Origin: Pseudobacteriovorax antillogorgiicola
GTDB taxonomy: Bacteria > Bdellovibrionota_B > Oligoflexia > Oligoflexales > RGVZ01
Assembly (NCBI GenBank): GCA_945898195.1
Contig: CAMDHM010000016.1
Span: 1-54,973, forward strand
Length of the DNA: 54,973 nucleotides
Reading direction: 5' to 3'
Shown here: positions 29,508-53,908 of the stretch, piece by piece
How the letters are laid out: every line of letters begins with the position of its first letter
How positions within the stretch are numbered: the stretch's first letter is position 1
The notes under the pieces: model-generated
Told to the model about the DNA's origin: nothing
The model's input: the letters and a program-made list of their open reading frames with translations, nothing else
Databases searched by the model: none
Made by a program: the position numbers and the translations under genes

Positions 29508-30350
29508 TCAAGGCTGAGAGCGCTTCGATTTGAATGTTGCGGGCCGTTTTTCGAGGAATGCGGTCATTCCTTCGCTCGCTTCGCCGGCGGACCAGCAATC
29601 GCCGAAAGATTCTGCCTCTGAGCTCAAACCAACTGCTAGATCCATCGTCAAACTATCCCGAACTAGACGTTTGCAGCGTCGAACGGCTTCCGGCCCGGCA
29701 GCCAGAATTGCCTCGATCAGGGCCTGCGTCTCCGCGTCCATTTTTTCAGAATCAAGCACCCGAGACACCAATCCCACTTTAAGGGCTTCATCTGCATTCA
29801 GGGTTCGCCCCCTGCCAGAACAAATCATATCCAATGCAACAGGTAGGCCAACGCGGCGGGCAAGGCGCTGAGTTCCGCCAAATCCAGGAATCAGTCCTAG
29901 GTTCACTTCTGGTTGGCCAAACTTCGCCGTATTCGATGCCAGCAGAATGTCGCAGGCCATGGCCAACTCGCAGCCGCCGCCCAAGGCAAATCCGCGGACT
30001 TTGGCGATCACGATTTGCGGCATGGACTCGAGCAAAGTTGTTACTTCCTGGCCAAGCAGAGCAAATTGCCGGGCCCCCGCGGCGTCAAGCGCGCGCATTT
30101 GTGAAATGTCCGCACCGGCAACAAATGCTTTTTCTCCAGCACCTTCGATGGTTATGACTCGAACCTCCCGGGCTTCGCTGATCCCAGTTAGTGCATCCCG
30201 CAGTTCCTCGAGTATTTCTCGGTTTAGGGCATTCAGTGACGTTGGGCGATTGATCACCACCTTGGCGGCCTGCCCGCCGTGGGTTGACTCCACGAGAAGT
30301 GTCTCGAATGGCCCCGTGAATGTTTTCTGCATGAAATTCAAACCTTCCAT
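29508..30350 (-). CDS. Enoyl-CoA hydratase/isomerase (crotonase family)
   Basis: The 280-residue protein has the crotonase fold: NRPTSLNALNREIL, oxyanion-hole segments KAFVAGADISQM and FALGGGCELAMACDI, then KFGQPEVNLGLIPGFGGTQRL with the catalytic-type Glu in QPEV. It hydrates enoyl-CoA to 3-hydroxyacyl-CoA. It follows the 3-hydroxyacyl-CoA dehydrogenase by only 3 nt, and the pair performs two consecutive steps of beta-oxidation or butyryl-CoA metabolism. An internal ATG at codon 7, with GGAAGG ahead of it, is an alternative start. Confidence 0.93.
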   Translation of the reverse strand: MEGLNFMQKTFTGPFETLLVESTHGGQAAKVVINRPTSLNALNREILEELRDALTGISEAREVRVITIEGAGEKAFVAGADISQMRALDAAGARQFALLGQEVTTLLESMPQIVIAKVRGFALGGGCELAMACDILLASNTAKFGQPEVNLGLIPGFGGTQRLARRVGLPVALDMICSGRGRTLNADEALKVGLVSRVLDSEKMDAETQALIEAILAAGPEAVRRCKRLVRDSLTMDLAVGLSSEAESFGDCWSAGEASEGMTAFLEKRPATFKSKRSQP

Positions 30351-34383: not shown

Positions 34384-34414
34384 TTTGGGAACTATTTTTA
34401 CGGAGGATATCGGG

Positions 34415-34786
34415 ATGAAGATTTTTGCTGCGGTACTTTTTTTGATGTGTTCTGGTTGCGCAACTTGGGATTTTACGACGGCACGCACCATTAAAGTTCG
34501 CGCGGGTAAGGGCGGAGTTTTGACTTTGAATCCTCCCGACGACCCGAGAGCCCGAGCCAAGGCGCAGAAAATCATGAGCCAGACGTGCCGTGGTAAGAAG
34601 GCTGAAATTACCGAAGAAGGCGAGGAGGTTGTTGGCACTAAGTCGGTTTCAAACACCCAGCAAAATGAGGGTTCTGCGGGTCAGAAAATGGGCAAGTGGA
34701 CCGTGAATGCACGGCCTGCTTCAGAGTCATCGACTTCAGAGCAGCAAAACATGACTGAGTGGCGCATTACCTACGAATGTAAGTAG
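34415..34786 (+). CDS. Small predicted lipoprotein
   Basis: The 123-residue protein begins MKIFAAVLFLMCSGCATWDF, a short signal peptide with a lipobox-like CSGC; the Cys at the -3 position is atypical. The mature part is polar, with GKGGVLTLNPPDDPRARAKAQKIM, a Thr/Glu/Ser-rich middle, and a final ITYECK. Cys50-region TCRGKK and the last Cys could form a disulfide. GGAGG eleven bases before the ATG supports the start. No family recognised. It follows ubiB by 31 nt and is closed by the terminator at 34804-34845. Confidence 0.75.
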   Translation: MKIFAAVLFLMCSGCATWDFTTARTIKVRAGKGGVLTLNPPDDPRARAKAQKIMSQTCRGKKAEITEEGEEVVGTKSVSNTQQNEGSAGQKMGKWTVNARPASESSTSEQQNMTEWRITYECK

Positions 34787-34803
34787 GTGGCATTCAAAAA
34801 AAG

Positions 34804-34845
34804 CCCTCATCGCCCCGCTGGTTTTGCGCGGCGATGAGGGTTTTT
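34804..34845 (+). terminator. Intrinsic terminator after the lipoprotein gene
   Basis: CCCTCATCGCC (34804-34814) pairs perfectly with GGCGATGAGGG (34830-34840), an 11-bp stem, followed by TTTTT (34841-34845). It closes the pabB-ubiB-lipoprotein run. An A-rich stretch precedes the stem, but in the other direction the next gene stops far away, so forward use is the main role. Confidence 0.9.
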
Positions 34846-35115
34846 AACATGCCAGCTCATTAATGCGCAGGAGGTAAAGAAGATGGTAGGCGCCGGGGTA
34901 TTTGATCGCCGGAAAGTTGGTTGTGGATAAGCGGATCTGGTCAGTGAATGTTCCTGTAAGCGAATAGCTTTTCGTCCATCAAGCGGAGCTAGGCGTGCGA
35001 TTCAAAAGGCTGACCACATTGCGCGTGAGGTGTGGTCGAATGCTAGCGCGAGAGGGGTTTGCATGTTCACCGCGATTTATTTGCAAGCCGTTTAACAGTC
35101 CCGCCCATTTTGAAT
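34846..35115. other. 270-bp intergenic stretch with one tiny open frame
   Basis: No normal gene is seen here. The only notable item is a 15-codon frame on the plus strand, 34883-34930, starting with ATG eight bases after a perfect AGGAGG (34869-34874) and encoding MVGAGVFDRRKVGCG. It may be a real micro-peptide, a leader peptide or a remnant of a lost gene. Confidence 0.35.
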
Positions 35116-36225
35116 TTAGTCCCATCGAACGAGTGCGGCTTCCATGGTAGCCCCTGGCCCCATAGCGATAAAAACGCCTAAATCGTCTTGCTCAATCTTA
35201 TCTTCCTCATGCAAGCGCTCCAGACTCATTATGAAGCTTCCCGATGAAATATTGCCATAATCGCGAAGCACAGAGCGTGTATGGCGCACATCATCTTCAC
35301 GTAAGTTGAGCGATTTTTTTGCCCCGTCGATCACCGCTCCTCCACCCGTATGTAGGACCCAGTGCTTGATATCTTGTTTGGTAATGCCATTGCGATCAAG
35401 TAGCCGCTGCACGGGAATTTGCACATGGTTGCCAATTACGAACGGAATATCCTTACTTAAGTAAAAGCTCCATTTATTTTGAGCCTCGTCCCATGTGAAT
35501 GTCATAGCGCCATGTTGTTCCGGAATCGTGAAAGATTCAAAATCGTAGATGCTTAATTGGGCGCGAGACCCTGATTTTCGGGAGCGAATTCCCGCGTCTC
35601 TGCCCGTGTGCCGGACTTTATTCAAGATCAATGCTGTAGCGCCGTCTCCAAATAGACTATTTACAATGCCTGTGCGGACCGTATCATCACGAACGTAGCT
35701 AGCCGAGTTGACCTCGCAGCAAAGTACCAGAATATTCTGTTCTGGGTTGGCGCACGACATTTTTGCACCGGAGTATAGGGCGCTCATTCCAGCGTTGCAC
35801 CCCATACCAACGATATCCATCCTATGTAAGTTTTGTTTCATACCAAGGGATCTTGAAACCAAGGATGAGACACCAGGAACCAAGAATCCGGTGGATGTCA
35901 CCGCAATTAAAACATCAATGTCACTCGCATCAAGACCTGCGTGATCTAAGGCTCGTTGGGTTGCTTTGACCCCAATATCGAGAATACCCTGCTTGAACTT
36001 TTTGTGGAGATCGTTTGGTGTTTCAAATCGAAGCTTGGCGGCTTTAGGAGCAAGTGGCGGAAGGTAAAGATGCCGTGTTTTGACATGGCCAGAAGCCATC
36101 AATTTTAAGACGGTCGGATTGGTTATGGCAAATAGTTTGGCGATTTCGTCCTGCGTATAGACCATGTCCGGAAATGCACTGCCGAACCCTTTAATCTTTG
36201 TCAACGGGAAATTTTTCGCACTCAT
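35116..36225 (-). CDS. Type III polyketide synthase, DpgA-like
   Basis: The 369-residue protein is a chalcone-synthase-fold enzyme. The catalytic triad is in place: Cys143 (GMGCNAG), His292 (VLHTGGG) and Asn325 (DYGNISSGSF). The run DDVRHTRSVLRDYGNISSGSF is especially close to DpgA, which condenses four malonyl-CoA into 3,5-dihydroxyphenylacetyl-CoA. Other type III products, such as resorcinols or pyrones, remain possible. GGAG six bases before ATG 36225 decides the start. The partners dpgB, dpgC and dpgD are absent; the neighbour is an intradiol dioxygenase on the same strand. Confidence 0.88.
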   Translation of the reverse strand: MSAKNFPLTKIKGFGSAFPDMVYTQDEIAKLFAITNPTVLKLMASGHVKTRHLYLPPLAPKAAKLRFETPNDLHKKFKQGILDIGVKATQRALDHAGLDASDIDVLIAVTSTGFLVPGVSSLVSRSLGMKQNLHRMDIVGMGCNAGMSALYSGAKMSCANPEQNILVLCCEVNSASYVRDDTVRTGIVNSLFGDGATALILNKVRHTGRDAGIRSRKSGSRAQLSIYDFESFTIPEQHGAMTFTWDEAQNKWSFYLSKDIPFVIGNHVQIPVQRLLDRNGITKQDIKHWVLHTGGGAVIDGAKKSLNLREDDVRHTRSVLRDYGNISSGSFIMSLERLHEEDKIEQDDLGVFIAMGPGATMEAALVRWD

Positions 36226-36401
36226 ATCCAACTCCATTAAAATTATCCCTATGTAAAAAAATGTCGCGCTTGTGTGATCAAACTAAAAATTCATTGGAGT
36301 TATTGTTGCTATTACTCGTGGTAGTAGCAGATTTCAGAAAACCACTTAGAAAAATTGCGATCATTTTATCTTGTTGCCGAGCAATCCTGCCTTCAAAATT
36401 C

Positions 36402-37142
36402 TTATTCAATTTCTGGTGTGCTGAGCATTCGTCCTGAGACCGTTGATCTGCCTCCTGACGCCAGGAATTTTCCAATATAAATAGACCAGGCTCCCTCTAA
36501 GGTTCCTCGGGCGACTTCCGGCGACTCAGCAAAATCCACAACGACCAGGTGACGCTCTGCAGGGCTTATTTTTTTCAAAATCAGATCCTTTTCGTTCAAC
36601 GGATCTCCCTTGAAATAAAGTTGCGTCGTAAGGGATGGATAACCTACCTTGTGGACCTTCACGTGGATGTGGGGCGGACGATCCCAGCCTTCACTCGCGG
36701 GATAAGCTCCTGGCTTGATGGATAGGACACGAAACTGGCCAGAGTTATTCGTAATGACCTGCGCCCAATATTGAAAATGAGGATCTAATGGTGCTGTGTT
36801 GGAATCGTTGGGATGGTCGTATTTACCCGAGGCGCAGGCTTGCCAAAACTCGACCATTGCACCTGCAATTGGTTCACGTGTGTCAGCATCCAACAGGACA
36901 CCGTTCAAAAGTATCCTTTGCCCGTCGGCAAATTCCGCATGACCCTTTACGCGAGTCATGTCTGCGTCCTTGTCCAATTGGTTCAGGATAGGATAGAAGG
37001 GGCCTTCCGTTTGTGGAGGTGTTTTGATGTTCCCCGCGGCCTTTGCTGCTGAATTCAGTAGAAACCCGCTGGCCAAAGCCCCGACACCTGCCAGCCCTGC
37101 ATTTTTTAATATCTCCCGACGCGCTGAATCAAATTTTCCCAT
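36402..37142 (-). CDS. Tat-exported intradiol ring-cleavage dioxygenase
   Basis: The 246-residue protein has a twin-arginine signal (ARREILKNAG, Arg8-Arg9, then a hydrophobic stretch to about 35). The mature domain belongs to the protocatechuate 3,4-dioxygenase/catechol 1,2-dioxygenase fold. The non-haem Fe(III) ligands are all visible: Tyr108 (SGKYDHP), Tyr147 (PGAYPAS), His158 and His160 (RPPHIHVKV). It cleaves catechol-type rings between the hydroxyls, here in the periplasm. TEGPFYP near residue 45 is a family N-terminal motif. It lies upstream of the polyketide synthase gene and divergent from a LysR regulator. GAGGA precedes the ATG. Confidence 0.92.
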   Translation of the reverse strand: MGKFDSARREILKNAGLAGVGALASGFLLNSAAKAAGNIKTPPQTEGPFYPILNQLDKDADMTRVKGHAEFADGQRILLNGVLLDADTREPIAGAMVEFWQACASGKYDHPNDSNTAPLDPHFQYWAQVITNNSGQFRVLSIKPGAYPASEGWDRPPHIHVKVHKVGYPSLTTQLYFKGDPLNEKDLILKKISPAERHLVVVDFAESPEVARGTLEGAWSIYIGKFLASGGRSTVSGRMLSTPEIE

Positions 37143-37210
37143 AGCTAATCATCCTCGCTAAATAGTTTTTGTTAATTGATTCTTTGAGAAAAGAAGCATA
37201 TCTATGTTTC

Positions 37211-37246
37211 CACATATTGGTAAAATTAATTGTAATTATATATGTG
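37211..37246. promoter_or_regulatory. Candidate LysR operator between divergent genes
   Basis: CACATAT (37211-37217) and ATATGTG (37240-37246) are perfect inverted arms 22 nt apart in a very AT-rich 117-bp divergent region between the dioxygenase and LysR genes. LysR regulators usually bind such interrupted dyads between their own gene and the divergent target. The right arm lies only three bases before the LysR gene's AAGGA. Confidence 0.45.
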
Positions 37247-37259
37247 ATAAGGAAAAACT

Positions 37260-38132
37260 ATGTTTCCATCTCCTACGGACTTGCACTATTTTCTTGAGGC
37301 CGCGAATACACAAAATTTTTCACGAGCCGCCGAAAGGCTTGGAATCACTCAACCATCCTTATCGTTGGCGATCCAAAGGCTGGAGGCGGATCTTGGGGAA
37401 AAAGTTTTTCTGCGCAGTAAGCGTGGCGTCACCTTAACTCAGGGCGGAAAGCTACTGCTCGTGCAGACACGAAATCTATTGGAGGTCTGGAATGGAGTGC
37501 GGGCGGATGCGCGGGGATCGATGCAAACAATCAAAGGCAACTACATCCTCGGCTGTCACCCATCCGTTGCCCTGTATTCTCTATCCTTGTTTTTACCAAA
37601 GGTACTGCTAGCTCACCCGGACCTTCAGGTGGATTTAGTTCACGACCTTTCGCGAAAAATCACTGAGGGTGTTGTGACCTCAAAAATCGACCTTGGAATT
37701 GTGGTTAACCCACATCGCCATCCTGACCTATTGATCAAAAAACTTGCCGATGATGACGTCGGATTTTGGGTTCGTGATAGCAAGAAACAGGAAAGTTTTT
37801 CAGACCGCGGTGGCAAAGGGCATATCCTGATTTATGACCCCGAATTAATTCAATCTCAGGTTCTACTTAAGAAAGCAGTAAAATTTGGATTTAATCCTAC
37901 GCGGATCATCGAGTCAGGAAGCCTGGAGGTCGTCGCTGAGCTCACTGCAAGCGGATGTGGCATTGGAGTCTTACCATCCAGAGTCGCCGAACGGTCCAGC
38001 AAAAAAATCATCCGCTTAGCAGGGGCGCCATTTTACCGGGATGAAATATGCCTCGTCATGCGCGTGGAAAATAAATCTGTCGCTGCGATGCGTTGCCTCG
38101 CCGAAGCAGTGGCTGAGGGCTTCCTCCGATAG
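37260..38132 (+). CDS. LysR-family transcriptional regulator
   Basis: The 290-residue protein has the winged helix-turn-helix at 1-60 (LHYFLEAANTQNFSRAAERLGITQPSLS, then IQRLEADLGEKVFLR) and a periplasmic-binding-like effector domain (about 90-290) with GVLPSRVAE near the end. The gene is divergent from the intradiol dioxygenase gene, the classical arrangement for a LysR protein that controls its neighbour with an aromatic effector (as CatR or BenM). AAGGA six bases before the ATG supports the start. Confidence 0.93.
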   Translation: MFPSPTDLHYFLEAANTQNFSRAAERLGITQPSLSLAIQRLEADLGEKVFLRSKRGVTLTQGGKLLLVQTRNLLEVWNGVRADARGSMQTIKGNYILGCHPSVALYSLSLFLPKVLLAHPDLQVDLVHDLSRKITEGVVTSKIDLGIVVNPHRHPDLLIKKLADDDVGFWVRDSKKQESFSDRGGKGHILIYDPELIQSQVLLKKAVKFGFNPTRIIESGSLEVVAELTASGCGIGVLPSRVAERSSKKIIRLAGAPFYRDEICLVMRVENKSVAAMRCLAEAVAEGFLR

Positions 38133-38164
38133 CCTAATGGGCACCAAATATCGGCCCAAAAAAA

Positions 38165-39358
38165 TTAAGCAGCGTTGAGCGGCATGTGAAAGCTGAGGCC
38201 ATCAATGTCCACATTGAATCCGTTGCCATCGGCCCGAACGGTCAGCTCCTTTCCAGCAAACTTCAACGTCCTCGACCCCCCAAACGGAATGATCATTGGA
38301 TCGACAGAGACTGATGCGCCGCCACCGAAGCTAAAAACAAATTTACCAGTTGGATCTATTTCCATTCCTTCGAGAACATCGCTGGAGACCGAGCGAACCG
38401 GCTCGGCGTCAATCCCACCGTGGATACTGACCACGTTTTCTTCCGTCGGTAATTCTTCGGGGGCAGACTCAGGGATCACTTCAGGAAGCGATTCCAGAAC
38501 TTCGTCCCGAACCGACGCATTTTCATCAGCTTCAACCGGAAAGGCTGCCTCAGCCTCCATCGATGCCACCATGGTGGTTTCCAGAGCATCTTCCGAAGTG
38601 GTTTCCGGGAGTGGTTCGGTATTGCCCACGATTTCCTCCTCCATCACAACTTCATCGGCCGGGCCTGGAACTGCAGCAGCTTCGGCCACTTGCTTGGCAT
38701 CGCCGCCAGCGTCAGCGCTGTAAGGCGCCAAAACGTTGATGAACGGCTCCATACCGATACGCTCAATGACGGCCTGCATGCGTTCGCCTGCCTGTCCGTT
38801 TTCCTTCCAGACATTAACCGCGGCCTTCACTTTTTCAACGATTTGATCGGCCGGAATTCCTTCAGCAGCAAATGAACCCAGCTCTGGAATGACAGCTTGC
38901 TTGCCGCCAATGGAAATACGGTAGCCTTCTTCCGTCCCAACGATCGCAATATCTAACGTGTGGCAGGGCACGCAACATGTGGCACAGCCATTGATTCCAA
39001 TTTTAAGCGCCGCGCCCGCCTCGACCCCAGCCAGTGCCTCCGTAATATCCAGAGATGATTTAAGGGCATCCTGCTTGCTTTCCGGACATAAGGCGCCAAG
39101 GCATGCCAGCGGCTGATGGATTCCATCCTGATAGTCACGGACCGCAAGCCCACCGGAGGCAAGTTCCTTGGTGATCACCTCGACTTGTTCCGGCACCACA
39201 AAAAGGGCCAGGCGTTGGTCTTCGGTCGCCTTGATGATCACCGAATGTTGTTCCGACAATGCGGCCAACTTTTTCAAGTGGGCTGAATTGTAGAGTCCCC
39301 CTGGAACTTCAGCCAAGAGGGCAACAGAACCGTTTTTTAATTTAAATGGCGTACCCAT
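38165..39358 (-). CDS. Single-module siroheme-reductase-like protein with acidic linker and new C-terminal domain
   Basis: The 397-residue protein starts with a ferredoxin-like half-domain of nitrite/sulfite reductases (1-75: SVIIKATEDQRLALF). A cluster-binding region follows: CLGALC (Cys86, Cys91) and NGCATCCVPC (Cys125, 128, 129, 132) before HTLDIAIVG. Only one copy of the usual two-fold repeat is present. Residues about 215-325 form a long Glu/Pro/Ala-rich, probably disordered linker, and 330-397 a small beta-rich domain (KFVFSFGGGASVSVDPMIIPFGG, then GFNVDIDGLSFHM) that I do not recognise. The ATG at 39358 has GGGAG upstream; a GTG eight codons earlier has none. Enzyme activity is uncertain. 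Confidence 0.7.
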   Translation of the reverse strand: MGTPFKLKNGSVALLAEVPGGLYNSAHLKKLAALSEQHSVIIKATEDQRLALFVVPEQVEVITKELASGGLAVRDYQDGIHQPLACLGALCPESKQDALKSSLDITEALAGVEAGAALKIGINGCATCCVPCHTLDIAIVGTEEGYRISIGGKQAVIPELGSFAAEGIPADQIVEKVKAAVNVWKENGQAGERMQAVIERIGMEPFINVLAPYSADAGGDAKQVAEAAAVPGPADEVVMEEEIVGNTEPLPETTSEDALETTMVASMEAEAAFPVEADENASVRDEVLESLPEVIPESAPEELPTEENVVSIHGGIDAEPVRSVSSDVLEGMEIDPTGKFVFSFGGGASVSVDPMIIPFGGSRTLKFAGKELTVRADGNGFNVDIDGLSFHMPLNAA

Positions 39359-39381
39359 TGGCGCTCCCTTTGATTGAGCCA

Positions 39382-39406
39382 CTCACACGCGTGAGTTCTT
39401 CACGCG
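39382..39406 (-). promoter_or_regulatory. Two overlapping, mutually exclusive hairpins in a leader
   Basis: Arms CTCAC (39382-39386) and GTGAG (39391-39395) form one hairpin; CGCGTGA (39388-39394) and TCACGCG (39400-39406) form another, stronger one with a 5-nt loop. They share bases and cannot form together. They lie 24-48 nt before the start of the siroheme-reductase-like gene, so they could be an operator pair or an RNA switch near its ribosome-binding site. Confidence 0.4.
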
Positions 39407-39468
39407 CTTAAGCTCATCCCGTTGAGAACCAATCGGCGAGCAATCCCAGTCACTTGACCCACGCAGGC

Positions 39469-39511
39469 AAAAAAAAAGGCCCTTAGGCATGGAAGTCCAC
39501 GTCTAAGGGCC
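39469..39511 (-). terminator. Intrinsic terminator of the XRE-like gene
   Basis: On the minus strand GGCCCTTAG (39511-39503) pairs with CTAAGGGCC (39486-39478), a 9-bp stem, followed by nine T (39477-39469). The loop contains a small inner palindrome (TGGA/TCCA). It separates the XRE-like gene from the siroheme-reductase-like gene downstream. Confidence 0.9.
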
Positions 39512-39568
39512 CAGAAATAATCACGAAAACACAAATATATTTCAAGAAACAAAATCCAAAAAGTTCGC

Positions 39569-40471
39569 TTAGCTCAGATTTTCCATGTAGTCACGCAGCC
39601 GTTGATTCATCAGTGCCTTGGAAACCCAAAAGGTAGATGCGAGCTGCTGTACAATGTCTAGGCTACTGTCGATCCGCTCTACTTCGCGGCGCATGAAGTC
39701 ACCCGGGACAAGCAACAATCCCGCGAAAGCGTTGCCCTGGATGTCGAGAGCTTCCGCTGGAGCACCAACAAAGGCAGCGCCCAGAGCGTGGCCTGTGCGG
39801 ACCAGCCAATTGAAAATTTCCTTGGCGATCAAGAATCGGATGAAGGAACGTGAATCGCTGGCGCGGTGACGGATGATCAGCTTGGTTTCAGAGCCTTCAC
39901 CAGTGTATTCAGCCACGAAAGGCTTCACCAGGGTAGCCTCGGCCACAATCGAAATTGCCGGGAACATCTGAAGCACTTCGGGGATATAAACTGGGGCTTC
40001 CGTGAAACGGCCCAGCTCGATGATTGCCTTTACCGTCTTGAGGACTGCTGCGCGATTCACATCAAACAAGGTTTCAAAGGAAGCGGGAGACCCATCTGCC
40101 TGCCAGCGGCTGGGGTTCTTAAAAAATTCCTTCTTTAGGTTCTCCTGCTGGCGCCCAGACATCGCAAATGCACCATAGCCGCGGTATTCGAAGACCGCCT
40201 CGTCCAGACCGACCGCGCCTGCGGCGATGTCAATCACCAGCCGCTCGTCGACGTTCAAATGATCAGCGAGCCCTCGCAAGGTCGAAAGGGAGCGAATGTT
40301 CTTCTTCCCCTTTTTCCAATGGCTGCAATCAGCGGGATCGTACCCAAGGATCGCACCAACATCCTGGTCAATGACCTTGACGTTGCCTTCGTAGCGAATT
40401 TCAAGAGCCTCCTTGCAGAAACGAAACAAGGTGGCGGAATGCGGGTAGCGGTTCTCTTCCGTCTTTTTCAT
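39569..40471 (-). CDS. XRE-like helix-turn-helix protein with degenerate ImmA/IrrE-like domain
   Basis: The 300-residue protein has an N-terminal helix-turn-helix region (about 12-75: FCKEALEIRYEGNVKVIDQDVGAILGYDPADCSHWKKGKKNIRS-type, ending LRGLADHLNVDE). The C-terminal part (about 130-300) resembles ImmA/IrrE metallopeptidases in layout (AIIELGRFTEAPVYIPEV, FIRFLIAKEIFNWLVRTGH, FAGLLLVPGDFMRREV, ASTFWVSKALMNQRL). The zinc-binding HExxH is replaced by AKEIFNW, so protease activity is unlikely. It may sense a signal and regulate neighbours. GGAGG nine bases before ATG 40471 sets the start. Confidence 0.7.
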   Translation of the reverse strand: MKKTEENRYPHSATLFRFCKEALEIRYEGNVKVIDQDVGAILGYDPADCSHWKKGKKNIRSLSTLRGLADHLNVDERLVIDIAAGAVGLDEAVFEYRGYGAFAMSGRQQENLKKEFFKNPSRWQADGSPASFETLFDVNRAAVLKTVKAIIELGRFTEAPVYIPEVLQMFPAISIVAEATLVKPFVAEYTGEGSETKLIIRHRASDSRSFIRFLIAKEIFNWLVRTGHALGAAFVGAPAEALDIQGNAFAGLLLVPGDFMRREVERIDSSLDIVQQLASTFWVSKALMNQRLRDYMENLS

Positions 40472-40538
40472 ATCGGCTAACCTCCGTGTCATAGGCCGAA
40501 GCCCAAAGGATCCGCATTTTGCAGATCTCCTGAGCGCC

Positions 40539-40562
40539 AAAGAAATGCGGCCTCATGCCGCA
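40539..40562 (-). terminator. Probable terminator of infC
   Basis: On the minus strand TGCGGC (40562-40557), ATGAG, GCCGCA (40551-40546) is followed by TTTCTTT (40545-40539). The stem is 6 bp, GC-rich, and the tail is T-rich but interrupted. It lies about 80 nt after infC and before the XRE-like gene, which suggests separate transcripts. Confidence 0.6.
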
Positions 40563-40639
40563 CTAAAAGCCTGTTTTTACAACTGTTAGGGAATGGCTGT
40601 ATTCAATTAGAAACGATTTTTTGGGACCGGTCAAGGCGC

Positions 40640-41119
40640 TCAGGCCTTGGCTGGTTCCAAAAGGGCGATGGTGATGGGTCCTGGAACCATGGAAACCTTA
40701 CACTTCACCACACTGGTGACGCGTTCAAGGAGGACACGAGCCCGTTCTGGTGACTCGCGCTCGCGACCACGAAGGCGGACGATAACCTTCACCTTGTCTC
40801 CACGCTCGAGAAACTTGGTGATATTGCCAATTTTAGTTTGCAGATCGTGATCACTGATGTTGATCTTGAGCTGAATCTCTTTCAATTCAGAACTCTTCTG
40901 CTGTTTGGATTTCGCTTTTTTCTGTTCGTAAAGAAGCTTCTTGAAGTCTTGTAGACGAACAACCGGTGGAGTCGACTTGTCGCTGACGAGGCAAAGGTCA
41001 AGACCCTCTTCCTCTGCACGGCGCAATGCTTCCGTGACGGGAACGATTTCGTTTACTTCTTCGCCAACCAGGCGGACTTGGGGGTATTGACGGGAGTTGG
41101 TGCGATTTATGACTTCCAA
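40640..41119 (-). CDS. infC: Translation initiation factor IF-3 (isolated, divergent)
   Basis: IF-3 binds the 30S subunit and checks initiator tRNA and start codon. The 159-residue protein has the N-terminal domain (VRLVGEEVNEIVPVTEALRRAEEEGLDLCLV), a Lys-rich linker and the C-terminal domain (INISDHDLQTKIGNITKFLERGDKVKVIVRLRGRE). It is about 20 residues shorter than E. coli IF-3. The start is TTG behind AAAGGA; IF-3 genes often use rare start codons for self-control. The usual partners rpmI and rplT do not follow, so this may be a relocated gene or a second copy. Confidence 0.88.
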   Translation of the reverse strand: MEVINRTNSRQYPQVRLVGEEVNEIVPVTEALRRAEEEGLDLCLVSDKSTPPVVRLQDFKKLLYEQKKAKSKQQKSSELKEIQLKINISDHDLQTKIGNITKFLERGDKVKVIVRLRGRERESPERARVLLERVTSVVKCKVSMVPGPITIALLEPAKA

Positions 41120-41159
41120 AAGCGATTTGTCCTTTCGACAGGTTTTACAACGGGCACTC

Positions 41160-41219
41160 GACGACCAGATTTAAGGTCGCCAGCACTTTCTTATACAAAT
41201 TAACAGAATTTTCCAGCAA
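41160..41219 (-). promoter_or_regulatory. Candidate infC promoter and leader hairpin
   Basis: On the minus strand TTGCTG (41219-41214), an 18-nt spacer and TATAAG (41195-41190) form a plausible promoter. Just after the expected transcription start lies a hairpin, GGCGACC (41181-41175) pairing with GGTCGTC (41166-41160) with one G-U pair and an 8-nt loop. Such a leader structure could take part in IF-3 autoregulation, but that is inference. Confidence 0.5.
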
Positions 41220-41229
41220 GATTGAGGCC

Positions 41230-42546
41230 TTGAATAAACATCCCTTGTGGCTCAAAGCCATAAAAACAACATACACCAATCATTACAGACGGTTACTAAT
41301 GTCGCCAACCAAGCCTCTCATCACTGACCCGATCGAACAAGCCTTCAAATTAGGGGAACATTGGGTTCCCGGGATCTGGCGCTACATGCTGCCCGTTGCC
41401 TTGACCGACATCACTTTGCCACAGGAACGGCGCGCGACCTGCCTAAATTGCCCGCGCGCCAAATTTGAGGGCTGGCGTCCCGACTACCGATGCTGCACCT
41501 ATCATCCCCGCGTGCCCAATTTTCTTTTAGGGCTCGCCCTTAGTCAACCGGCATCCGAGAAAATTATAAAGACCCTTGTCCTTAAGGGCTTTCTATTACC
41601 GGAGGGCATGATCTCTTCGCCAAATCAATGGGCACATTATTTAACGGACACCGGTGAAGATCGCTTTGGGCGCAGCGAAAAAGTCCTCTGTCCATTCTTG
41701 GAACAGAAATCTGGACTATGCAACCTTTACGCCTTCCGCAATTCGGTTTGCTCAACTTTCTTTTGCCAACATGATCACGGCGACAAGGGTGACCGATTCT
41801 GGTCCAGCTTGCAAACCGTTGCGCAGCAGGTGGAGATGGGCCTTGGCCAATGGGCATTGAACCAACTCGGATTTGACGTCAAAGCTTACATGAAGCGCCT
41901 AAACTCACTTTCCACAACCATTGAAAAAGTTTCAGACCCAGAAACCGGCGCCTGGACACCGGCAGCATTGAAGCTCGTATGGGGCAAGTTTTATGGCCGC
42001 GAAATCGAACTACTCCAGGCCTGCGGGGATCTTGTCCGAAAACATCGCGATGAGCTGTGGAAAATCGCCAATACCATCGACATTCTTGAGGCGCATAAAT
42101 TTGATCGCGCCTCAGTGCGTATTGTTCCAAAGAAATACCGGTCCGAAATAGACGCGGAATATTTTGAAAGCGGAGACACTTCGCCGCCGCGCGATATTTG
42201 GCGGGGCTTTAAGGCCTTGCACAAAAACCTTTGGGCACTTCCCGCGGGATCTCTTTCGTTCAGCCCAAGGGCCCAGTTGATGGCCAACCCCAAAGACGAC
42301 GCTGAAGGCAAGGCCTTCAAGGACTGCACCCACATGGTTGAATTCCGGGCACGTCGTAATGCTCACGATTACGAATGGCGTGAATACATCCCGGCCGACA
42401 AGGCGATGGCGCTGCTGTGGTTCAGTCGCAGGCGCAAAGTCAACGCGGCCCTTCTGGAGCGGTTGTCCAGCATGCTCAAACAGGATGCATCGCAATTCCT
42501 GTCTGAGTGGACCGGTAAGAAAGTTTTAACCAAATCTTTGCCCTGA
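41230..42546 (+). CDS. YkgJ-like cysteine-cluster protein
   Basis: The protein has 438 residues from a TTG at 41230; an ATG at 41299 (codon 24) is an equally possible start, and neither has a good ribosome-binding site. Eight cysteines fall in two groups: CLNC (71, 74) plus CC (88, 89), and C154-x9-C164-x9-C174-x4-C179 in CPFLEQKSGLCNLYAFRNSVCSTFFC-type context. The second group resembles YkgJ/UPF0153 zinc- or iron-binding proteins (C.IY..RP..C..F.C). The remaining 250 residues are helical and not recognised. It may bind one or two metal centres; function unknown. Confidence 0.7.
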   Translation: MNKHPLWLKAIKTTYTNHYRRLLMSPTKPLITDPIEQAFKLGEHWVPGIWRYMLPVALTDITLPQERRATCLNCPRAKFEGWRPDYRCCTYHPRVPNFLLGLALSQPASEKIIKTLVLKGFLLPEGMISSPNQWAHYLTDTGEDRFGRSEKVLCPFLEQKSGLCNLYAFRNSVCSTFFCQHDHGDKGDRFWSSLQTVAQQVEMGLGQWALNQLGFDVKAYMKRLNSLSTTIEKVSDPETGAWTPAALKLVWGKFYGREIELLQACGDLVRKHRDELWKIANTIDILEAHKFDRASVRIVPKKYRSEIDAEYFESGDTSPPRDIWRGFKALHKNLWALPAGSLSFSPRAQLMANPKDDAEGKAFKDCTHMVEFRARRNAHDYEWREYIPADKAMALLWFSRRRKVNAALLERLSSMLKQDASQFLSEWTGKKVLTKSLP

Positions 42547-42637
42547 CAGCTAGTCGTGCCGTAAGATCTCGGAACGCCCCCTCAATCTTAAAAAAAGAAT
42601 GGGGGGATGAGAGATAAAAAACCAACAGGAGTCAGAA

Positions 42638-43276
42638 ATGATATTCAAAGACATGTTTAAAGTGAACGTCCTAAGCGCAGCCCTCGCAGCAACGGTCGCT
42701 ACATTCGCGAGCACCACACCGGCTTTTTCCGCCATATGGGTAACCGACCAAGCGCATTCCTCGGCTCAATTCAAAGTGAAACACATGATGATCTCCAACG
42801 TCTCTGGTGACATCACTGGTGTTGACGCAAAAATCAACCTTAACGACAAGGACATTACCAAGTCGACGGTTGAAGCAACGCTAGACATCAAAACGATCAA
42901 CACCAATAACCCAAAACGTGACGAGCACCTTCGGAGTCCTGATTTTTTTGACGCCACAAAATTCCCAGTGATTAAATTCGTTTCGAAAAAAGTTGACAAA
43001 GCGGGTAAGGATCAATTGAAAATTTCCGGTGATCTCACCATTCGCGACATCACCAAGTCGGTGACGCTTGATGTAACGGGACCGACCGCGGGAGCCAAGG
43101 ATCCATGGGGCAATATCAAGCGCGGCTTGAGCGCTTCGACCAAGATCAACCGCAAAGACTTTGGCCTCACCTGGAACAAAGCCCTAGAAACCGGTGGAGT
43201 GGTCGTCAGCGACGAAGTTAGAATAGAAATCGAACTTGAGCTGCAGCAGCCCGTAGAAAAGAAGCCAGCACACTAA
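42638..43276 (+). CDS. YceI-family periplasmic lipid-binding protein
   Basis: The 212-residue protein has a Sec signal peptide (1-31, AFSA) and a YceI lipocalin-like domain: WVTDQAHSSAQFKVKHMMISNVSGDI, then DEHLRSPDFFDATKFPVIKFVSK, then LTIRDITKSVTLDV, and KINRKDFGLTWN. YceI proteins bind isoprenoid or fatty lipids in the periplasm and are often induced by stress. AGGAG six bases before the ATG is a strong Shine-Dalgarno. A peroxiredoxin follows after 39 nt, hinting at a shared oxidative-stress role. Confidence 0.94.
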   Translation: MIFKDMFKVNVLSAALAATVATFASTTPAFSAIWVTDQAHSSAQFKVKHMMISNVSGDITGVDAKINLNDKDITKSTVEATLDIKTINTNNPKRDEHLRSPDFFDATKFPVIKFVSKKVDKAGKDQLKISGDLTIRDITKSVTLDVTGPTAGAKDPWGNIKRGLSASTKINRKDFGLTWNKALETGGVVVSDEVRIEIELELQQPVEKKPAH

Positions 43277-43315
43277 AGCGAACTCATCATTAGGCTGAGA
43301 CCAGGAGCAGGGAAA

Positions 43316-43852
43316 ATGGTGGCGAAAAAAGTCGTTAAAAAAAAGACCGTTAAAAAGTCGGTCAAAAAGACATCCACCGGCGGTCCCATCCCGTCTTCCG
43401 GCGTGCATGCGCCGGAATTTTCCCTCCCTGCTTCCCCGGGCGATCAAATCGACCTAGCTTCATACCGCGGTAAAAAGAATGTCGTCCTCTATTTTTATCC
43501 GAAAGATGACACTCCCGGCTGCACGGCCGAGGCATGCTCCTTTCGGGACCATTACGAACGGATCTTGAAGACCGGCACCATCGTGATAGGCATCAGCGCA
43601 GATCCTGTAAAAAAGCACGAACGCTTCATTACGAAATATAGCTTGCCGTTCCCGCTCGCATCGGATGAGCAAAATACGGTCGCAAAAAAGTATGGCGTCT
43701 GGGTCGAAAAAAGCATGTACGGCCGGACCTACATGGGCATTCAACGATCGACTTTCTTGATCGACAAATCTGGACAAATTACCGCAGCGTGGCCCAAGGT
43801 CAAGGTCGATGGCCACACGGACGAAGTCCTGGCAGCCATCGACCTGCTATAA
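43316..43852 (+). CDS. bcp: Peroxiredoxin (BCP/PrxQ type) with basic N-terminal tail
   Basis: The 178-residue thiol peroxidase reduces hydroperoxides. FYPKDDTPGCTAEACSFRD holds the peroxidatic Cys and, five residues later, the resolving Cys, as in PrxQ. The domain runs from about residue 28 to the end. The first 20 residues are an unusual tail of repeated Lys-Lys-Val and Lys-Lys-Thr units (AKKVVKKKTVKKSVKK), absent from normal BCP. The tail resembles the histone-H1-like protein at 29034-29441 and may tie the enzyme to DNA or membranes. The stop codon directly abuts the convergent phoH stop. Confidence 0.92.
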   Translation: MVAKKVVKKKTVKKSVKKTSTGGPIPSSGVHAPEFSLPASPGDQIDLASYRGKKNVVLYFYPKDDTPGCTAEACSFRDHYERILKTGTIVIGISADPVKKHERFITKYSLPFPLASDEQNTVAKKYGVWVEKSMYGRTYMGIQRSTFLIDKSGQITAAWPKVKVDGHTDEVLAAIDLL

Positions 43853-45184
43853 CTACAGCAACGAAGCCGCTAAAGTCGCCAGTTCACTTCGCTCACCGCG
43901 CTTCAGGGTGACGTGGGCCGCAATTTTGGCATTCCGGAAGCGTTCAATCACGTAGGTAAGACCGTTATTCTCTGAATCGATATATGGATTATCGATCTGA
44001 TAAGGGTCGCCCGTTAGAACGATCTTCGTTCCCTCTCCCGCTCGCGTCAAAATTGTCTTGATCTCGTGAGGCGTCAAATTCTGCGCCTCGTCTACAATAA
44101 AATATTGATTCGGTAGAGATCGGCCACGGATGTACGTCAAGGGTTCAACCGCCAGCATTCCTTGATTGATCAATTCCTGATAGCCCTTACCAAACCGCTT
44201 GTGCCGTCCCCCGGCGCCGCCACTGAGCAACAGCTCCAGGTTGTCGTAAATTGGTTGCATCCAAGGGTTGAGCTTCTCGTCAAGGTCGCCGGGCAGGAAA
44301 CCCAGGTCCTTGCCCAAGGGAAAGATCGGTCGAGCAACAAGTAATTTATGATACTCGTCCTCGTCCGTGGTTTTTGCCAATCCGGCTGCAATTGCCATCA
44401 GGGTTTTACCGGTACCAGCGCCACCGCTAAGGGTCACAAGTTTGATGTTATCGTCTAGCAGCGCTTCAAGCGCAAACGTCTGCTCCAAATTTCTAGGATA
44501 AATCCCCCACACTCCCTCGGAGTGAGGCTCAAGCATCCTAACCACCTCGCCCTGGGGATCGTACATCCCGTAGACAAATTGATTGGAGTCATCTTGATCT
44601 TCCAAAATGACAAACTCATTCGGATAAAGGTCGGCAACCGGAGCCTTCATTTCACGCCGGTTGTACAAGTCGTTGATCGACTGGGAAGAAGTCTTGACAT
44701 TACGGTAGCCGGAATACAGATGAGAAATATCGACCTTATCCGCCTCAAAATCTTCCGCTGCAATTCCGAATGCGTCGGCCTTAATCCGAAGGTTTGAATC
44801 CTTTGTGATGATGCTGACCTTGCGGCCATCACCAAATTGTTTTTGCAACGTCAGCGCAATCGACAGAATGTGATTGTCCGTGTTGTCGGCAAGAACATCC
44901 GGAAGGACGTTCATATTATGACCGAGGTAAACGAACAGGCTGCCTGATTCCTCTTTGTCATCAAACAGGCGAATACCCGACGACAAAGTTCCTTTTTCTC
45001 GCAATCGATCAAGGATCCGGGAAACCTCACGGGCATTGCGACCCGTTTCACTCAAATCTTTTTTAAAAGTATCGACTTCCTCAATCACTGAAATCGGGAT
45101 CACAACATCATTGTCATCAAACTTGAAAATGCTGTCAGGGTTGTTCAGAAGAATGTTCGTATCAAGGATAAAAACTTTTTTCAT
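43853..45184 (-). CDS. PIN-PhoH fusion ATPase (YlaK/PhoH2 type)
   Basis: The 443-residue protein joins an N-terminal PIN ribonuclease-like domain (1-140, FILDTNILL with an acidic metal ligand) to a PhoH ATPase domain (about 220-443). Visible are Walker A LSGGAGTGKTLMA, ARPIFPLGKDLGFLPGD, Walker B FIVDEAQNLTPHE and TGDPYQIDNPY. PhoH2 proteins are described as RNA helicase/nucleases, often stress- or phosphate-linked. The start at 45184 begins the PIN domain and follows GCGAGG; an upstream extension of 22 codons is not supported. It is divergent from prkA. Confidence 0.93.
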   Translation of the reverse strand: MKKVFILDTNILLNNPDSIFKFDDNDVVIPISVIEEVDTFKKDLSETGRNAREVSRILDRLREKGTLSSGIRLFDDKEESGSLFVYLGHNMNVLPDVLADNTDNHILSIALTLQKQFGDGRKVSIITKDSNLRIKADAFGIAAEDFEADKVDISHLYSGYRNVKTSSQSINDLYNRREMKAPVADLYPNEFVILEDQDDSNQFVYGMYDPQGEVVRMLEPHSEGVWGIYPRNLEQTFALEALLDDNIKLVTLSGGAGTGKTLMAIAAGLAKTTDEDEYHKLLVARPIFPLGKDLGFLPGDLDEKLNPWMQPIYDNLELLLSGGAGGRHKRFGKGYQELINQGMLAVEPLTYIRGRSLPNQYFIVDEAQNLTPHEIKTILTRAGEGTKIVLTGDPYQIDNPYIDSENNGLTYVIERFRNAKIAAHVTLKRGERSELATLAASLL

Positions 45185-45249
45185 AAACCTCGCCTTAAGT
45201 AAAAGGGCTGAATTGGTAAAACGGTAACACACATTCATGATCCCTGTCA

Positions 45250-45265
45250 TGGCAGGCTGATGCCA
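45250..45265. promoter_or_regulatory. Dyad between phoH2 and prkA
   Basis: TGGCA (45250-45254) and TGCCA (45261-45265) form a perfect dyad with a 6-nt centre in the divergent region. It resembles a sigma-54 site but the GG and GC elements are 9 nt apart instead of 10. An operator shared by both stress genes is a reasonable guess. Confidence 0.35.
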
Positions 45266-45340
45266 TTAATTCGGGCACCCCCCCCATAATGACACCGCCC
45301 TCCCATTCCGATATCTTTGAACCAGGGGGGGAGTCAAAAA

Positions 45341-47674
45341 ATGACACCAGACGACAACCGGCCAACGGACCTTTATCCTGCCGGCTCCAACGCCGGAATT
45401 CAGAGCCTACTCACGGGATTCACCGACGCGAGCAAATCCCTATTCAAACAAAGAAAGACCCTGCTTACCTTTGCGGACTTTCTGGCCGTCGTCCAAAAAA
45501 ATCCACGTTCGATGATCCGAAACAGCTCCAGCTACCTCAGGGACGTATTTGACTATTTCGGTACCTCTGGTGCACAAAAGTCGACCAGCAACGAAATACC
45601 GTCGCCTCTGAGCGAAATCGAGCGCTTCAAGATCTTCGATATTGGCACCGACCGGCAGATCCCAATCATTGGCGGCGAGGCCGTCCAGCGTGAACTGTAC
45701 AATATCGTCCAAGCCTTTGTGCGCCAGGGGGTTTCCAACAAATTGATCATGCTGCACGGACCCAACGGTTCGGCAAAAACTTCGACCATTGAAGCCATAG
45801 CCCATGCCATGCAAATGTATAGTGAGGAGGATGCTGGGGCGGTCTATCGGTTCAACTGGGTCTTTCCAACCGACAAATCGAGCACATCAAAGATTCGCGG
45901 AGAAACTGGGCCAATTGGGTTTGGAAAGCCGTCGGTCGAAGAATATGGATCGGCATCTTACGCGCTCCTCGATGAATCCGAAATCGCGTCAAAAATCGTG
46001 TCTGAATTCAAGGAAAACCCAATCTATTTGATTCCTATGCCCGTCCGGGAAACTTGGCTCCGCAATTGGATCGGTCAGCAGGAAGGAATCGCGCCTGATC
46101 ACGTGGAACTTCCCCCCAACATACTTCTGGGGGGACTTTCGAAAAAGAACCAGCAAATCTACGAAAATCTCCTGAACGCTTTTGATGGAGACGCCGGAAA
46201 AGTTCTTCGTCACATCCAGATAGAACGTTTCTTCTACTCGCGGCAGTACCGCGTTGGGATGTCAACGGTTGAGCCTCAAATGTCTATCGACGCTCAAGAA
46301 AAACAACTCACAATGGACAAGAACCTAACCAACCTGCCAAGCGTTCTCCAAAACCTGCGATTTTATGAGGCACAAGGCGAATTGGTTGAAGCCAATCGCG
46401 GAATCATTGAGTTCTCTGATCTTTTAAAACGTCCAGTCGAAACCTTTAAATACCTTTTATCGACGATTGAACGTGGGATGGTGTCGTTGCCTTCAGCAAC
46501 GGCATTACTCGACGTAATTTTTCTGGCAACGAGCAATGAAAAACACCTGGACGCGTTCAAAACCATTCCGGATTTCAGTTCCTTTCGTGGGCGTTTTGAA
46601 TTCATCAAAGTGCCCTACCTCCTCCGGCCGTCCCTTGAGGTTAAAATTTATGAAACGGATCGTGCTGCATTAGCTAAGTCCCACGAGATTCTGCCGCATA
46701 CACTAGATCTTTTGAGCCTTTGGGCCGTGATGACCCGTTTGAAACAACCTGATCCAGAGGCCTACGATGCCCCCATGAGGGGAGCCGTCGTAAAACTGGA
46801 CCCACGGAACAAGATCCGCCTTTATGAAGGTCAAGAATTACAAGGGATCAAATCATCAGACATCCATCAACTTCAGGAGCTACGTCAGCAAATCTGCGCT
46901 GAATCGGTCGGCTCCGTGGTCTACGAAGGACGTTTCGGAGCCTCGCCGCGAGAAATCCGGCAAATCCTTTACCGGGCAGGACAAACTTCGAGAGACGGGC
47001 TCCTTGGTCCAAGCGATATTTTTCGCGAGCTCGAAATTTTGGTAAAAGATCGCTCGGTCTATGATTTTCTACAATTCGAACCAGGGGGGAAATATCACGA
47101 CGCCCCAATATTCATCAGAATGCTGCAGGATGAGTTTGCCGACATTTTCGAAACAGAACTTCTGTCCTCTTTAACTTTGGTCGAAGAGCAACAGTACGAA
47201 CAACTAATTCAGCGTTACGTCGAAAATATCGTGTCGGAGATCAAAAAAGAGAAGATCTATAACTCCAAGACTTCATCTTATGAACCAGCGAATCAGAATC
47301 TAATGAAGGACCTGGAGAAGGTTCTGGGAATCACCGGCAACGTCGAGAAGCATCGCGAGAATGTTCTCGGCCGAGTTGCAGCCTGGAAGATTGAAAACCC
47401 GTCGACAAAAATCGACATCGCCGGAATCTTCCCAGACTTCTTGCGCAAGGCGCACGAGCACTACTACGAAGAAAAATCCAAGGTTATCGATGCGGCTCAG
47501 AAAGCCATGCTCGCCCTCGGGAGCGATTCGGAAAAAAGTATCCCCGATCAGGATCTGCACTTGGCTCGCACAGGATTTGCACAGCTTGAAAAACGTTTCG
47601 GTTACTCCGAACGCGCAGCACGTTCTAGCCTCAAATTTTTGATCACGAATCGCAAAGGACGGCCAAAAAAGTAA
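45341..47674 (+). CDS. prkA: PrkA-family AAA+ serine protein kinase
   Basis: PrkA proteins are AAA+ ATPases described as serine kinases or proteases in stress and stationary phase. The 777 residues are longer than the usual 640. The N-terminal AAA part has Walker A LHGPNGSAKTS, and VYRFNWVFPT, RGGLVEFSD-like GIIEFSDLLKRP and SFRGRFEFIKVPYLLRP are family blocks. The C-terminal PrkA domain includes GRFGASPREIRQIL. The Shine-Dalgarno GGGGGGAG seven bases before ATG 45341 decides the start. The usual partners YeaH and SpoVR are not in the window. Confidence 0.93.
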   Translation: MTPDDNRPTDLYPAGSNAGIQSLLTGFTDASKSLFKQRKTLLTFADFLAVVQKNPRSMIRNSSSYLRDVFDYFGTSGAQKSTSNEIPSPLSEIERFKIFDIGTDRQIPIIGGEAVQRELYNIVQAFVRQGVSNKLIMLHGPNGSAKTSTIEAIAHAMQMYSEEDAGAVYRFNWVFPTDKSSTSKIRGETGPIGFGKPSVEEYGSASYALLDESEIASKIVSEFKENPIYLIPMPVRETWLRNWIGQQEGIAPDHVELPPNILLGGLSKKNQQIYENLLNAFDGDAGKVLRHIQIERFFYSRQYRVGMSTVEPQMSIDAQEKQLTMDKNLTNLPSVLQNLRFYEAQGELVEANRGIIEFSDLLKRPVETFKYLLSTIERGMVSLPSATALLDVIFLATSNEKHLDAFKTIPDFSSFRGRFEFIKVPYLLRPSLEVKIYETDRAALAKSHEILPHTLDLLSLWAVMTRLKQPDPEAYDAPMRGAVVKLDPRNKIRLYEGQELQGIKSSDIHQLQELRQQICAESVGSVVYEGRFGASPREIRQILYRAGQTSRDGLLGPSDIFRELEILVKDRSVYDFLQFEPGGKYHDAPIFIRMLQDEFADIFETELLSSLTLVEEQQYEQLIQRYVENIVSEIKKEKIYNSKTSSYEPANQNLMKDLEKVLGITGNVEKHRENVLGRVAAWKIENPSTKIDIAGIFPDFLRKAHEHYYEEKSKVIDAAQKAMLALGSDSEKSIPDQDLHLARTGFAQLEKRFGYSERAARSSLKFLITNRKGRPKK

Positions 47675-47683
47675 TCGTTGGCC

Positions 47684-51399: not shown

Positions 51400-51421
51400 G
51401 ATAATGCCCTCCAGGACGTTT

Positions 51422-51430
51422 TTTATACCA
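51422..51430 (-). promoter_or_regulatory. Extended -10 promoter of hutU
   Basis: On the minus strand TGGTATAAA (51430-51422) fits TGnTATAAT with one mismatch. No good -35 box is present. The expected start of transcription, near 51415, leaves a short leader with the GGAGG site before the ATG at 51399. Confidence 0.5.
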
Positions 51431-51475
51431 CAGGATGCTTGCCATGGCCGCCGCAGACTGTTTCACTACAAAATT

Positions 51476-52852: not shown

Positions 52853-53908
52853 TCCAACTCCATAAATTGAGAAGCCACCCCTCGATGCCGAGTAGGTCAC
52901 ACGGCCCTCACCCTCAGACTTGCTGAGGCCAGGCTCATAGCCCGCTCGCAAAATAATTTCCAGCGACTGAGTGACATATGCATCACAACGGACGACGACA
53001 CCGCCGCCTCCCAGCGACCCCACATCCACTCCGCCAATTGTGCCGTAATATGCCGGAGCCCAGCTGACATCAATGCCAAGTCGAGTGCCGCCGCGACTGG
53101 GCTCAATTGATTCTCCGCCTCCGAACTTTCGCTCCGCACTAAAATCATAAGACATCTTGTTGTCATAACCGGAATCAAGATCCGCATAACCATGCCAAGT
53201 CAGTGCCGCGGAAAAATTCATTTGATCAAAAGCTCGGGCGTAACTCAAGCTTGCCGAGCGCGCCTGCGCCTCAGATCCCTGGTCGGACTCATTAACGTTG
53301 ACCGTCGGCTGAAATAAAATTCCAAACTGATGTCCGCCGTGCCGCCAACCAATCGCCCAATGTACCTGGTGGTAATTGATCGTTCCATCAGAACGTAAAT
53401 CAGAATCGGCGGTAGTTTGAGATTTTTTTTCCGACGCCGAGAGAGTTGCGGCCAAAGCAATTTCATTTGTAATTGTGCCACCAACAAACACCCTAAGATC
53501 GGTCGTCGCAACATTGTGCAGATACGGCACGCCGATTTGCAAATCACTGCCACTGGCCGTCATAAATTTTAATTCGCCAATAGAAGATGACGTATCCGTG
53601 ATTCTAGATAATCCGAATCGTAAGGAGCTTCCTCCGCCTTCTGCCGACCCACTGAGTAGCTCCAAACTTAACGAAGAAAATTTTTGCCTTAATTCAAAAC
53701 CCAATCCCCCGGTAATTGACTGAGAAAAATCACCCCAACCAGATAAATAGCCAAGAAAAGCAAGCCCACGAGGATCGAGCATTCGAAATGAAGCGTTGTC
53801 AGCGCTACTGCCTTGGCCAGGGTAGAAATAGTATTCATCGCCGAAGGCTGTATTTGTAAAAAGCAACAAAATCAGCCAGATCGCTGGAGATCTTAAAAAG
53901 CGCTTCAC
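52835..53908 (-). CDS. Predicted outer-membrane beta-barrel protein
   Basis: The 357-residue protein has a signal peptide (KRFLRSPAIWLILLLFTNTAFG, cleavage after about residue 22) and a Gly/Ser-rich mature part of alternating beta strands, ending with a terminal Phe (GLRKSF), the usual outer-membrane assembly signal. Strand pairs such as LSLELLSGSAEGGGSSLRFGLSRI point to about 14-16 strands. The start is GTG 53908 behind GGGAG; a TTG 20 codons upstream is less likely. The family and ligand are unknown. Confidence 0.7.
   Translation of the reverse strand: MKRFLRSPAIWLILLLFTNTAFGDEYYFYPGQGSSADNASFRMLDPRGLAFLGYLSGWGDFSQSITGGLGFELRQKFSSLSLELLSGSAEGGGSSLRFGLSRITDTSSSIGELKFMTASGSDLQIGVPYLHNVATTDLRVFVGGTITNEIALAATLSASEKKSQTTADSDLRSDGTINYHQVHWAIGWRHGGHQFGILFQPTVNVNESDQGSEAQARSASLSYARAFDQMNFSAALTWHGYADLDSGYDNKMSYDFSAERKFGGGESIEPSRGGTRLGIDVSWAPAYYGTIGGVDVGSLGGGGVVVRCDAYVTQSLEIILRAGYEPGLSKSEGEGRVTYSASRGGFSIYGVGLRKSF

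Follow-up and report, generated by a model that had tools for sequence, protein, structure and literature searches.

Side-by-side placement of a LysR-dioxygenase gene pair and a DpgA-like type III polyketide synthase gene, probably unlinked, in Pseudobacteriovorax antillogorgiicola

A contig of 54,973 nucleotides from Pseudobacteriovorax antillogorgiicola (GenBank assembly GCA_945898195.1, contig CAMDHM010000016.1, positions 1 to 54,973; this whole stretch is referred to here as the window) carries a gene for a DpgA-like type III polyketide synthase next to a gene for a putatively exported intradiol dioxygenase, which is divergent from a gene for a LysR-type regulator. The locus probably consists of a LysR-dioxygenase pair and a separately acquired, unlinked DpgA-like synthase gene that stand side by side. 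The pair recurs in three relatives without an adjoining synthase gene, and the three genes are therefore probably neighbors rather than one pathway. A trio that formed one pathway would be striking; the evidence points to two parts. A preliminary description of this DNA had proposed that the synthase might make an aromatic polyketide that is then oxidized in the periplasm, with the caveat that the two enzymes may have nothing to do with each other, and it is the caveat that the evidence favors. The features of the locus are as follows:

35116 to 36237, minus strand: DpgA-like type III polyketide synthase, 373 amino acids, intact open reading frame
36238 to 36401, minus strand: gap of 164 bp separating the dioxygenase and synthase genes
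36402 to 37142, minus strand: intradiol dioxygenase, 246 amino acids, with a twin-arginine N-terminus, intact open reading frame; export by the twin-arginine translocation (Tat) route predicted from the motif
37143 to 37259: divergent intergenic region of 117 bp between the LysR and dioxygenase genes
37260 to 38132, plus strand: LysR-type regulator, 290 amino acids, intact open reading frame
34384 to 38165: segment comprising a small open reading frame, the synthase, the dioxygenase, and LysR, unmatched in the corresponding contigs of three genus mates

The three reading frames were thus intact and placed as first described, with LysR divergent from the dioxygenase. The gap between the enzyme genes, given earlier as 176 bp, measured 164 bp.

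Distribution of the pair and of the synthase

The dioxygenase was detected in 12 of 56 genomes: that of P. antillogorgiicola itself, none of the three genus mates, three of the six family mates, and eight further genomes in the order. Within the family (10 genomes), LysR (E ≤ 1e-40) was found only in the window's own genome and in G004, G006, and G008. Both genes were present in these same four genomes, where they were adjacent and divergent in every case, and absent from the same six others. The regulators of G004, G006, and G008 were 54 to 60% identical to that of the window. Dioxygenase neighborhoods were read in 8 of the 11 other genomes, and no match to the synthase at E ≤ 0.01 lay beside the dioxygenase in any of the eight. 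Weaker LysR neighbors of the dioxygenase were present in G014 (32% identity, downstream) and G017 (22%, divergent), and no LysR neighbor was found in G019, G035, or G041. A two-gene unit of LysR and a predicted exported dioxygenase thus comes and goes in one poorly studied family.

Among 58 genomes from the phylum, only the window's own had the synthase at E ≤ 1e-45, and the three genus mates had no match even at 0.001. G004 does encode a type III synthase, but a different one (33% identity, placed outside the DpgA superclade described below), located on the same contig ∼665 kb from its dioxygenase. A search with an alignment (A1) gave 313 stretches in named genomes that encode relatives, of which the best 80 were kept; a single-sequence scan of genome contigs recovered no synthase relatives. 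The 80 neighborhoods covered up to 10 kb per side, many of them shortened by contig ends. None of the 80 contained an intradiol dioxygenase (hidden Markov model built from 120 relatives) or a LysR of the window's type (phmmer and blastp) beside the related synthase, and the window, as positive control, was recovered in both searches. When whole genomes were searched for 30 of the 80, an intradiol-type match was present in 13, the best with 44% identity over residues 56 to 184. Viral contigs contained no relatives of either enzyme, and plasmid searches gave only matches below 60% identity. Nothing linking a type III synthase and such a dioxygenase with Bdellovibrionota was found in the open-access literature; a Bradyrhizobium study describes type III synthase and intradiol genes as separate loci. 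Conservation of the trio, proposed earlier as a check, was not seen among homologue neighborhoods: no other locus combined the two enzymes, in a comparison that covered neighborhoods other than those of the synthases nearest to the window's.

The expected chemistry also argues against a joint pathway. DpgA converts four molecules of malonyl-CoA to 3,5-dihydroxyphenylacetic acid (PMC6274091), and intradiol enzymes cleave between adjacent hydroxyls (PMC9167512). Because the DpgA product is a meta-diol, further hydroxylation would be needed before the ring could be opened, and no hydroxylase gene was recognized in the segment from 34384 to 38165. The proposed make-then-oxidize pathway was therefore not borne out, given the pair without a synthase in G004, G006, and G008, the absence of an intradiol dioxygenase from all 80 synthase neighborhoods, and the meta-diol product.

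Several observations weigh on the other side. A single 3.8-kb segment, which three genus mates lack, holds both the synthase and the pair; the enzyme genes are on the same strand with no terminator between them. All three genes have a low codon fit, as if acquired jointly (synthase, 0.019; dioxygenase, -0.006; LysR, 0.022; mean of 27 other genes, 0.052, with a standard deviation of 0.020). Three of those 27 genes scored similarly low, namely yceI at 0.007 and two at 0.017 to 0.018, so that the evidence from codon fit is weak in both directions. In addition, the clade of 27 rows to which the window's synthase belongs (see below) otherwise consists of protein records, and the co-occurrence counts cover loci outside this clade.

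These observations would fit one acquired unit in which the synthase makes an aromatic polyketide, a hydroxylase encoded elsewhere adds an ortho hydroxyl, ring opening by the exported dioxygenase follows in the periplasm, and LysR senses the product. The adjacency of the genes, the 164-bp gap without a terminator, and the shared absence and low codon fit speak for such a unit. It is nevertheless unlikely, since LysR and the dioxygenase occur without the synthase in three relatives, none of the 80 neighborhoods pairs a related synthase with an intradiol dioxygenase, and a catechol is not what the synthase would be expected to make, with no hydroxylase gene recognized in the segment. A related possibility is a make-and-break unit, in which a synthase from an unnamed clade related to DpgA produces a diffusible aromatic compound and the LysR-controlled exported dioxygenase destroys that compound, or a competitor's version of it, in the periplasm. 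This is quite improbable; if true, it would represent an aromatic polyketide signal that comes with a dedicated enzyme for opening its ring in the periplasm.

Within the 164-bp gap, no terminator-like or promoter-like site was detected on the gene strand at the scan threshold, in a scan whose overall number of sites was about that of shuffled sequences, and RNA structure was no greater than expected by chance. As no terminator was seen, the synthase may be transcribed partly from the dioxygenase promoter. A search 5' of the synthase gave no conserved LysR box.

The synthase and its clade

Both chalcone/stilbene synthase domains of the protein scored above their Pfam cut-offs, and C147, H296, and N329, which form the Cys-His-Asn triad, were identical in 50 of 50 aligned rows, in agreement with the earlier assignment to type III synthases with an intact triad. 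The structural model (mean predicted local distance difference test score, 82.1) matched type III polyketide synthase structures, the best being 4b0n with a template modeling score of 0.84 (on query). The solved structures nearest by sequence were Steely1 (2h84), Pks11 (4jao), and 1u0m.

In a tree of 70 rows (L004 corrected; L012, L014, L016, and several others omitted), a DpgA superclade of 61 rows (branch support, 100/100) was separate from nine other type III synthases. The window synthase fell within it, in a clade of 27 rows (100/99) nested in one of 39 rows (99/100). The description of the protein as DpgA-like therefore holds. As to its place in the tree, it lies inside the DpgA superclade but outside the rows with dpgA-D operons (e.g., L155, which is annotated, and L102); these fell outside the 27- and 39-row clades, among 22 rows with unresolved grouping. 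The 39-row clade includes L031 and L033, each with a dpgB-like gene downstream. Against the DpgA model NF042429, the window synthase scored 382.2 bits, below the curated cut-off of 425, which L031 passes (444) and which L034 (421) and L036 (414) just miss.

Residues were compared between 22 rows of the window's clade and 22 rows outside it, and eight changes were fixed or nearly fixed in the former: 81 H to F, 125 A to S, 151 L to M, 266 Y to F, 297 S to T, 301 K to A, 337 F to V (M in the window), and 358 T to A. In the 39-row clade, six additional rows have the changes at 81, 125, 297, 301, and 337 and lack those at 151, 266, and 358. Positions 297, 301, and 337 are near the catalytic His296 and Asn329 in sequence. 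The synthase thus resembles DpgA in its type III fold, its Cys-His-Asn triad, and its membership in a common superclade, and differs in its score, its lack of a dpgB/C/D operon, and these eight positions.

A dpgB-like crotonase gene lay directly downstream of the synthase gene in 70 of the 80 loci by the rule used, and also in L037, L046, L052, and L077, in which the open crotonase frame begins within or ahead of the synthase gene and extends beyond the end of that gene. A crotonase of any kind was present within 10 kb in 75 loci; among the five loci without one in the stretch covered, four (L032, L034, L035, and L036) belong to the six closest synthase relatives. The presence of a crotonase anywhere within 10 kb was rejected as a discriminator: it did not separate the window from other loci, because a general crotonase gene lies 4.8 kb from the window's synthase. 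A count restricted to crotonase genes directly downstream did set the window apart. As noted previously, no dpgB, dpgC, or dpgD adjoins the synthase: none was present in the window and no DpgB scored above its cut-off in the genome, while DpgC was searched for at the locus only.

The general crotonase gene (29508 to 30350) raises the alternative of an ordinary DpgA that makes 3,5-dihydroxyphenylacetyl-CoA with the aid of this cellular enzyme, the dioxygenase being irrelevant. DpgB and DpgD increase the efficiency of DpgA (PMC5132015). The intact triad, the placement in the DpgA superclade, and the related L031 protein that passes the DpgA cut-off are consistent with such an enzyme. However, the crotonase scored 185 bits against a DpgD cut-off of 400 and is part of a pair that is present in the genus mates too, no DpgB above cut-off is encoded in the genome, and the synthase itself scores below the DpgA cut-off and has fixed differences beside its catalytic residues, all of which makes an ordinary DpgA improbable.

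For a synthase that stands apart from the dioxygenase, as is preferred here, the likely reaction would be condensation of malonyl-CoA in the cytoplasm to a resorcinol-type compound resembling 3,5-dihydroxyphenylacetate. The C8-to-C3 cyclization of DpgA is termed unique in PMC6274091, and the product of this well-supported, unnamed type III synthase clade next to DpgA could show how that cyclization arose or changed.

Some of the loci are of interest in their own right. The dpgA-dpgB arrangement is known from Actinomycetota. A dpgA gene followed directly by a dpgB-like gene was common in genomes of uncultured Myxococcota and Pseudomonadota (L038, L039, L042, L050, L082, and others). Four loci titled as Klebsiella pneumoniae or Bifidobacterium breve metagenome-assembled genomes (L043, L046, L051, and L069) carry dpgA-dpgB-like genes with 42 to 45% identity to the window's; in this they resemble the uncultured proteobacterial and Myxococcota records, and the titles look wrong. 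In L034 (8508 to 13329), an alphaproteobacterial DpgA-like gene without dpgB lies between fatty-acid-desaturase-type and P-type ATPase genes.

The dioxygenase and its regulator

The dioxygenase passed PF00775 (95.9 versus 27.3 bits). Y108, Y147, H158, and H160 were invariant in 26 of 26 rows, the window row included, and aligned with the Tyr, Tyr, His, and His that serve as iron ligands in the beta chain of protocatechuate 3,4-dioxygenase; with this assignment, the claim of an intradiol dioxygenase with four metal ligands stood. The beta chain was also the nearest solved relative by sequence and fold of the modeled protein (mean predicted local distance difference test score, 78.1). R8 and R9 of the SARREILK motif were likewise invariant in 26 of 26 rows, and the N-terminus of the model is a helix followed by a low-confidence stretch. 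Judging from the twin-arginine motif, the enzyme is probably exported by the Tat route, as had been proposed.

The protocatechuate 3,4-dioxygenase beta chain (PcaH) is thus the closest solved relative and has the same ligand positions. However, the window enzyme scored below both subunit models (TIGR02422, 128 versus a PcaH cut-off of 296.4 bits; TIGR02423, 98 versus 126.25), and it is encoded by a single gene with a twin-arginine start and no adjoining PcaG partner. Streptomyces SACTE_2871 and the spider-mite DOG enzymes, both among the fold matches (26 to 27% and 23 to 24% identity, respectively), resemble it in the intradiol fold and, if it is exported as predicted, in the extracytoplasmic setting; the window enzyme differs from them in its Tat-type start and LysR linkage. 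The secreted spider-mite enzymes are presented as detoxifiers in PMC9167512, and PMC3539863 suggests that a Bdellovibrio intradiol dioxygenase degrades river aromatics. Nothing on SACTE_2871 was found in the open-access literature, in which extracellular intradiol dioxygenases came up in a fungal paper.

The regulator passed PF00126 and PF03466, its helix-turn-helix and substrate-binding domains. In arrangements of the catR-catA and pcaQ-pca type, the LysR gene and the intradiol dioxygenase gene are likewise divergent. The window's pair resembles these in the divergent LysR gene and differs in that its regulator reached neither the CatM (51 versus 580) nor the PcaQ (50 versus 304) cut-off and in that no PcaB above cut-off is encoded in the genome. 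A sequence of the T-N11-A type, ATTGGTAAAATTAAT, is present at 37216 to 37230, and the matching region of G004 has ATTGGTAAAAATAAT; with up to two mismatches, the motif was no more frequent in the window than expected by chance. The conserved divergent arrangement suggests that LysR regulates the dioxygenase.

The role of the pair is probably catechol detoxification, which fits the lack of a PcaB above cut-off better than growth on protocatechuate would. LysR may sense an aromatic compound or its ring-opened product and switch on the dioxygenase, which would fold, be loaded with iron, and leave the cytoplasm via the Tat route. Once outside the cytoplasm, the enzyme would open catechol rings and so remove catechols that are toxic or bind iron, for example, catechol or protocatechuate.

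Genomic setting of the segment

The segment from 34384 to 38165 had no blastn or tblastx match in the corresponding contigs of the genus mates G001, G002 (first 22 kb), and G003 (from 15 kb), and the synthase, dioxygenase, and LysR were absent from all three draft genomes when these were searched as a whole. Together with the codon fit, this absence suggests that the segment was acquired, or that the genus mates lost it. In G001 and G002, the ABC1-family kinase gene that precedes the segment in the window is directly followed by a gene that lies ∼20 kb further on in the window, and the block from that distant gene to 38165 has the opposite orientation to that in the window; in G002, the contig stops partway through this block. 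The inverted block is ∼16 kb (window 38165 to 54973 versus G001:C15 and G002:C10), with the segment at one breakpoint.

This position, in a 46-contig draft genome that is 89.5% complete, might also indicate an assembly artifact, i.e., a contig that mixes two organisms or is misjoined at the breakpoint. In the protein collection, the dioxygenase and LysR had near-copies (99 and 96%), as opposed to a best match of 67% for the synthase, a difference that an artifact could produce. An artifact is highly improbable, since guanine-plus-cytosine content has no sharp step at either end of the segment, codon fit is only mildly different, and the nearest LysR-dioxygenase pairs among those fetched are from the same family. 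The near-copies instead hint that the pair is more widespread among close kin than the synthase, a weak indication given clustering and the special listing of the organism's own proteins.

Three features flank or border the trio:

34385 to 34786, plus strand: small open reading frame, 133 amino acids
34804 to 34846: terminator-like 11-bp inverted repeat with a T-run, 3' of the small open reading frame, read by eye
38165 to 39382, minus strand: nitrite/sulfite-reductase 4Fe-4S domain protein with a long acidic tail

The small open reading frame had no Pfam or NCBIfam match and no match in the fetched genus-mate contigs. The inverted repeat is missing from the scan list because its loop (15) exceeds the loop limit of the scan (8). 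The 4Fe-4S domain protein is kept in G001 (68% identity) and G002 (73% over the part covered), and it matches NirB-type proteins in their C-terminal half only.

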